Assembly: GCA_013140715.1 (NCBI GenBank)
Contig: JABFSG010000021.1
Location: 1 to 52,068, forward strand
From: Nitrospiraceae bacterium
Lineage (GTDB): Bacteria; Nitrospirota; Nitrospiria; Nitrospirales; Nitrospiraceae
Direction: 5' to 3'
Length of the DNA: 52,068 bases
A model generated the notes under the pieces. That model had not been told where the DNA came from. It saw nothing but the letters and a program-made list of their open reading frames with translations, and made no database searches. The translations under genes and the position numbers were made by a program. This document shows positions 37,628-39,553 of this stretch, in pieces (within the stretch, counting starts at the first letter, position 1; each line of letters starts with the position of its first letter).

Positions 37628-38881
37628 GTGGATACGTCTGTTCACACGAATTTTCACACCCTTGGTTTGTCTGAACCGCTCGTGCGGGACTTGACGACAG
37701 CAGGCCTGCTGGTTCCCACTCCCATTCAAGCCCAGGCCATTCCGCCAGCTCTTGAGGGGCGAGATGTTATCGGTTGTGCGCAAACCGGTACGGGAAAGAC
37801 TGCGGCATTTGTGATTCCTATGATCGAGCGCCTCGCGGCCTTACCAAAAGGCCAACCGCAGGCCTTGATCCTTTCGCCGACACGTGAGCTGGCCTTGCAG
37901 ATTCTTGGTACGATCGAAAAACTCGGTCGAAGCCATGGTATTTCCGCCACGGTTATTGTTGGAGGGAGCGATATGCAGGCCCAGATCAGAGGATTACGCC
38001 AGCAGCCTAATATACTGGTTGCCACACCGGGGCGCTTGTTAGACCATATGTGGAACGGCACGGTCAATTTGGCCCCGATTAAGATCCTGGTTCTGGATGA
38101 GGCAGACCGCATGCTCGATATGGGGTTTGCTCCACAGATTAATCAAATTCTTGACGCATTGCCGATTGAGAGACAGACATTGCTGTTTTCCGCTACGATT
38201 CCGACGGATGTCACCCGCCTAGTTCAAGCAAGTCTGAATAGCGCCGTTCACGTGATGATTACGCCGGCTTCAACAACCGCTGAAGGTGTGTCCCAGGTGG
38301 TGTATCATACCACCTCCCATGAGAAGACCAATTTGTTGGTGTCGTTGCTGGCAGTGGAACGAGGGACAGTTCTCGTATTTGCCCGGACGAAGAGTCGGGT
38401 CGATCGACTCGGTCAGACGCTTGAGCAGGCCGGTCAGCGCGTCGCAGTTATCCACGGAGATCTCAGTTTACCTCAACGTCTCCGTGCTCTCAACGGATTT
38501 AAACGAGGGCAGGTCAGAATTCTTGTCGCAACAGATATCGCAGCTCGTGGGATCGATGTGGCGAATATCGGCCATGTGGTGAATTATGACTTACCGAACT
38601 GTCCGGAGGATTATATCCATCGTATCGGGCGGACTGCCCGGATGAAGATGACCGGGCGAGCCAGCAGTTTTGTGACGTTCGAGGACCATGATCAGTTGCG
38701 TGCGATTGAAACATTGCTGGGACATCCTGTGCCGTTGGCTGAGGGGAGCTCCCGTTCAAGTGATCGTCCCCATTCCAGGGCCGGGACTGAAGGATCTGGA
38801 AATGGTCGACAGCGGTGGGGGCGTCCAGGTGAGGGGCGGCGTCAGTATCAGCCGAGTCTTCCCGTACGGGAGAGAGTCTAG
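37628..38881 (+). CDS. DEAD-box ATP-dependent RNA helicase
   Basis: All core motifs are present: Q motif PTPIQAQA (30-37), AQTGTGKT (51-58), PTRELA, TPGRLLD, DEAD (157-160), SAT (188-190), then TDIAARGID and HRIGRTAR in the second RecA domain. The tail (about residue 375 on) is short, basic and glycine/arginine-rich, as in RhlE/CsdA-like helicases. Start GTG 37628 follows GAAAGGATAG. Probably unwinds structured RNA in ribosome assembly or decay. Its exact subfamily is uncertain. Confidence 0.93.
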   Translation: MDTSVHTNFHTLGLSEPLVRDLTTAGLLVPTPIQAQAIPPALEGRDVIGCAQTGTGKTAAFVIPMIERLAALPKGQPQALILSPTRELALQILGTIEKLGRSHGISATVIVGGSDMQAQIRGLRQQPNILVATPGRLLDHMWNGTVNLAPIKILVLDEADRMLDMGFAPQINQILDALPIERQTLLFSATIPTDVTRLVQASLNSAVHVMITPASTTAEGVSQVVYHTTSHEKTNLLVSLLAVERGTVLVFARTKSRVDRLGQTLEQAGQRVAVIHGDLSLPQRLRALNGFKRGQVRILVATDIAARGIDVANIGHVVNYDLPNCPEDYIHRIGRTARMKMTGRASSFVTFEDHDQLRAIETLLGHPVPLAEGSSRSSDRPHSRAGTEGSGNGRQRWGRPGEGRRQYQPSLPVRERV

Positions 38882-39011: not shown

Positions 39012-39200
39012 CTAATACAGCGGTTCTTGTGGACCCCATTGAAGTCCTGCCAAATCAGGATCTTCTCCCTCAGGGCTTGAGGGGCGAGCGGGCTTCTCGG
39101 TTTTGCGCTGTTCTCGGCGGGTATCTTTTTCGCGCCGCTGCATTTGCTTTGCTTTTTCGCGGTCTCGTTTTGCAATAGTTGTTTTTCCTGCTCGTCCGAT
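39012..39200 (-). CDS. Small basic protein, apparent AUC start (62 aa)
   Basis: The frame reads xGRAGKTTIAKRDREKAKQM, then an arginine/lysine-rich helix, then EGEDPDLAGLQWGPQEP before the stop. It looks like a conserved small protein with a basic coiled helix and a GxDPDLAG tail, which I recall only vaguely. AAAGGAGG sits five to six bases before ATC at 39198-39200. The frame has a stop about 11 codons further upstream and no ATG, GTG or TTG between. So either AUC initiates or a normal start was mutated. A rival frame at 38939-39226 has no ribosome site. Confidence 0.5.
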   Translation of the reverse strand: MGRAGKTTIAKRDREKAKQMQRREKDTRREQRKTEKPARPSSPEGEDPDLAGLQWGPQEPLY

Positions 39201-39265
39201 GATGCCCTCCTTTGCCGGCGACTCATAGGAGTCGCGAATCGCCTGCTATTTAAGGTTAGGTAGCC

Positions 39266-39553
39266 CTAGGATTTTGACGATTCCGTTGCTCCACGACGTC
39301 TCTTGCCGCCCGGCGCAGGAACGTAGCTGGTGGTCTTTGCTTCTCGTTCTGCTGTGCGCGCGCGGGTACCCTGGCCGAACCCGCGGCTTGCCATATTTGA
39401 GACCTGTTGGCGAATGTCTTCCATTGACGTTGTCAGACTGGTATCCAAAGGGCCTGGAAGTCCAAGCACTTCCCATCGGATTTTTGGCTTCCGTGTCGCC
39501 CGGGCTCGGTTCTTTCTCGTCTTGTCGGCACGCCACCCAGTGGATAGCTTCAT
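39266..39553 (-). CDS. Unrecognised small basic protein (95 aa)
   Basis: ATG 39553 follows TTAAGGAGCACAC, a good ribosome site. The product begins MKLSTGWRADKTRKNRARAT and is basic throughout, with a short less-charged middle (VLGLPGPLDTSLTTSMEDIR). It may bind nucleic acid or ribosomes. It lies just upstream of the AUC-start gene on the same strand, so the two may share a message. Confidence 0.6.
   Translation of the reverse strand: MKLSTGWRADKTRKNRARATRKPKIRWEVLGLPGPLDTSLTTSMEDIRQQVSNMASRGFGQGTRARTAEREAKTTSYVPAPGGKRRRGATESSKS

Follow-up and report, generated by a model that had tools for sequence, protein, structure and literature searches.

Conserved AUU, AUC or AUA start codons outside infC are, to our knowledge, few. 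The pcnB gene of E. coli, which begins with AUU, is an example of a gene other than infC with such a start. These three codons are the start codons against which IF3 discriminates (PMC4611024), and initiation pairs mismatched at the third position give low yields that IF3 cuts further (PMC10158994). The closest described systems are cvfC1 (AUU) and ccpN (AUA) of S. aureus. Both have conserved starts and a strong Shine-Dalgarno (SD) sequence; ribosome profiling and reporters showed that these starts reduce expression, and in ccpN the non-AUG start makes expression medium-dependent (PMC13009471).

Here, we describe a small gene, designated B, with an AUC start. It lies in a window of 52,068 nucleotides, the whole stretch of Nitrospiraceae DNA that was analyzed. 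B resembles cvfC1 and ccpN in combining a conserved, IF3-discriminated start with a strong SD; in S. aureus the start was demonstrated by ribosome profiling and reporters, and in B it is supported by sequence comparison. The cvfC1 product is also similarly small (61 aa versus 62 codons in B). The S. aureus genes differ from B in belonging to another phylum, in using AUU and AUA instead of AUC, and in their extended SD pairing. With infC, which starts with AUU, AUC or AUA, B shares the ATC start in the same genomes and the same expected discrimination by IF3, but B is no initiation factor by sequence and its SD is the stronger one. The pcnB gene likewise has a non-canonical start outside infC, although it encodes an unrelated protein and uses AUU. 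This kind of conserved non-AUG start is already known from infC and cvfC1/ccpN, and B itself appears to be new as far as the searched literature shows.

Organization of the B locus

Gene B is located on the minus strand at positions 39012-39200 and consists of 62 codons, counted from the ATC, and a stop. In the direction of translation, the SD AAAGGAGG (39213-39206) is followed by the five nucleotides GCATC, the ATC start codon (39200-39198), 61 further sense codons and a TAG stop (39014-39012). The nearest upstream in-frame stop is a TAG at 39248-39246, which gives an open frame of 77 codons, and no in-frame ATG, GTG or TTG was read between this stop and the ATC. This confirms the earlier note, in which a 62-codon frame with an ideal SD and without a canonical start back to the stop was reported. 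B is present in a single copy in its own genome, which its named relatives place among Nitrospira-like bacteria. In the same genome, 48 AAGGAGG-N3-6-ATC sites were found, and B alone combined an open frame of at least 60 codons with the lack of a canonical start nearby or upstream in frame; this survey for further AUC genes covers AAGGAGG sites, and genes with a weaker SD, e.g., infC, fall outside it.

A hairpin (39217-39236, minus strand) is located just 5′ of the SD in this genus. It shows some covariation, with 93.8% of cells paired and 7 cells changed on both sides, compared with at most ~60% paired in the slid controls. The region as a whole is not unusually stable (z of −0.44).

The usual upstream partner of B is gene A, a 95-aa basic ORF with an ATG start (39266-39553, minus strand) and without a match in Pfam. 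Its homologue was found upstream of B in most loci of Nitrospiraceae (family f1) and in some loci of family f3, and it was not found in g5, f2 or the outgroups. Since B keeps its non-AUG start where gene A was not found, coupling to gene A is not the reason for the AUC. On the other side, a DEAD-box RNA helicase, named from its sequence motifs, is encoded convergently (37628-38881, plus strand). The named B loci drawn from the genome collection numbered 80, and a helicase homologue was present at 45 of the 80 loci tabulated; an RRM protein is another frequent neighbor. Some genera also have, next to the helicase, an uncharacterized protein of ~115 aa without a Pfam match; in other genera it is encoded upstream of gene A (in locus L072, for example, this protein lies between +228 and +573 relative to the start).

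The product of gene B

The B product begins with (I/M)GRAGKTTIAKRDREKAKQ, continues as a basic helix and ends with the conserved tail GEDPDLAGLQWGPQEPLY. Searches of Pfam, NCBIfam and PDB sequences gave no significant match to any family, initiation factors included, and tblastn against plasmids returned nothing. The predicted structure is a single helix spanning residues 9-35, with a mean pLDDT of 72.5 and a low pTM of 0.35. This basic helix with its conserved tail is probably an RNA- or ribosome-binding protein. The frequent presence of the DEAD-box helicase and the RRM protein near B is a hint in the same direction.

Conservation of the AUC start in Nitrospiraceae

The first search detected B homologues in 47 of 61 genomes; across the order Nitrospirales, 166 of 196 genomes have one. 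The cultured species N. defluvii and N. moscoviensis are among the carriers of the AUC form, and codon 2 encodes Gly or Ala. The start codons were aligned for 88 distinct f1 sequences, and codon 1 was ATC in all of them. In the window, this codon is the second of a tandem ATC pair. In the 30 loci first examined, the second codon (39200-39198) was always ATC, while the first was ATC, ACC or GCC among relatives, which identifies the second ATC as the start of B. The motif GGAGG is placed exactly 5 nt from the ATC in 85 of the 88 sequences, and the SD core columns are invariant in alignment A3. A strong SD with constant spacing accompanies, and would offset, the weak start codon.

The other Ile codons in B genes were ATC in 49 cases, ATT in 23 and ATA in 5 (64% ATC), and codon 9, which is often Ile, was found as ATC, ATT, CTC, GTT and others. 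Codons 2-4 nearly always end in A, which indicates that the initiation region itself is constrained. From codon 5 on, synonymous variation indicates that the frame is translated. Third codon positions vary far more than first and second ones, and the homologue set has a pN of 0.042 and a pS of 0.504 (pN/pS ~0.08). By these substitution rates, the set is under strong purifying selection at the protein level. Canonical in-frame starts farther upstream occur in 8 of the 88 sequences, and none of them is conserved.

Start codons in other families and evolutionary history

In family f2, B starts with ATC and once, in one genome, with ATT; in the three f4 genomes it starts with ATA. An SD is present a few nucleotides upstream in every non-AUG B of these other families. 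In f3, the start is ATG at the same aligned residue, and ATG is also used in the class-level outgroups f5 and f9. Inside f1, ATG starts were found in genera g19 and g20 and in one of the G134 paralogues, and a divergent subtype (MPTHPKVTAAKRQRERDK...) in g18, g24, g28 and g29 starts with GTG or ATG. The occurrence of ATG at the aligned position in f3, f9, f5, two f1 genera and one paralogue fixes the position of the B start. The earlier note had proposed a homologue search and a comparison of start codons as a check on the AUC start, and the outcome, a family-wide ATC in f1 with aligned ATG in homologues elsewhere, strongly supports that start.

A tree of IF3 placed f3 as sister to f1 + (f2+f4), with f5/f9 as the outgroup (SH-aLRT 82-92, computed without bootstrap). 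From the distribution of start codons, the simplest history would be an AUG ancestor, one switch to a non-AUG start before the split of f1, f2 and f4, and a few returns to AUG or GUG. A non-AUG start older than the split of three families refutes the recent loss of ATG, which had been offered as the alternative to an AUC start, and excludes a sequencing error as the source of the ATC. The use of AUG by some f1 genera (G101 and G114, both with an ATC infC) and by one G134 paralogue shows that AUC is dispensable for B.

Two further kinds of B-related copies were noticed. In genome G071 (L211, contig C21), a copy whose start position reads AAC instead of ATC has a degenerate C-terminus and has lost the tail, which fits a gene in decay. 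Several f1 genomes (L150, L206-L208, L210 and L333) also carry a second, divergent paralogue family (MSTTIKKRHREQTRQERQQ...EDPDLAGMVAGPQ), which probably starts at an ATG located a few codons within the aligned region.

Comparison with infC

The start codon of infC was compared at loci that include L177-L198 and L219-L248. In the genomes examined, f1, f2, f4, f5 and f9 have an ATC start in infC; f3 has ATG there, and its B starts with ATG as well. The infC gene of the genome studied here (L247, G000:C8:8420-8626) has an ATC start. Since infC starts with ATC in most Nitrospirota genomes examined, its non-canonical start seems to have been lost in family f3. A non-AUG B together with an AUG infC was found in none of the genomes examined, and this link between the two genes rests on very few independent evolutionary events. 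The reverse combination, an AUG or GUG B with an AUC infC, occurs in several genomes, namely in some f1 genera, e.g., G101 and G114, and in outgroups. The idea of strict co-switching of the two starts was dropped for this reason. The AUC of B is thus compatible with, and not dictated by, the codon used for IF3.

Proposed mechanism and alternative explanations

We consider it highly likely that B is a real gene started at AUC by the CAU initiator tRNA, with an output limited by IF3 and a product that probably binds RNA or the ribosome. The strong SD would draw in the 30S subunit, and the ordinary CAU initiator tRNA would read the AUC with a third-base mismatch. Discrimination by IF3 would then keep the output low and dependent on the IF3 level or on initiation fidelity, as for infC. 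The family-wide conservation of the AUC suggests that a low or regulated level of the B protein is maintained deliberately.

By likeness to infC, with its ATC start in the same genomes, autoregulated translation of B is plausible. The product might alter initiation fidelity or bind the ribosome and thereby repress its own translation from the AUC, in the manner of IF3. The invariant AUC in f1, the start codon common to B and infC, the basic helix, and the helicase and RRM protein among the neighbors fit this explanation; against it, the product has no homology to an initiation factor or a known family, and some orthologues and a paralogue use AUG or GUG. We regard such direct feedback as rather unlikely.

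Far less probable is that ribosomes enter the B frame upstream of the AUC, having started in gene A or at an out-of-frame ATG at 39226 and arrived by readthrough or frameshift, with the AUC being an internal Ile codon. Gene A does lie directly upstream, and the ATG at 39226 is present, but it is ACG in most relatives. Moreover, the AUC is kept in g5 and f2, where gene A was not found, an in-frame stop stands immediately ahead of the SD in many genomes, and AUG orthologues start exactly at the position of the AUC. The comparison of homologous sequences already contradicts this explanation.

Translation from an internal ATG at codon 20, giving a 43-aa product, is scarcely credible: it corresponds to an ORF (39012-39143) listed mechanically from canonical starts only, but codons 2-19 are conserved as protein, the internal ATGs are not conserved, and only 25 of the 88 sequences have a canonical start at codon 20. 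Equally hard to credit is a dedicated initiator tRNA with a GAU anticodon that would make AUC effectively canonical, as the invariant ATC, never ATT, of both B and infC in f1 could suggest, but f2 and f4 use ATT and ATA in B, the initiator-type tRNA genes found in four genomes (G000, G020, G066 and G134) by pattern search and ARAGORN carried only the CAU anticodon, and the GAU pattern hits in these genomes were non-tRNA according to ARAGORN.

Implications

ORF callers that accept only ATG, GTG and TTG miss or truncate genes with starts of this kind, and mis-annotation in nitrifiers can therefore affect B as well as infC. It is conceivable, though we hold it doubtful, that Nitrospirales have a small AUC regulon made up of infC and B, in which B would be a new initiation-linked regulator, associated with the ribosome or RNA, under its own feedback and tied to the level of IF3 and to initiation fidelity. 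Because the start of B can be dated on a tree that also holds its AUG ancestor, relatives with AUU or AUA and revertants to AUG, the reason for such starts becomes open to testing. The codon common to B and infC points to a defined set of genes sensitive to IF3.
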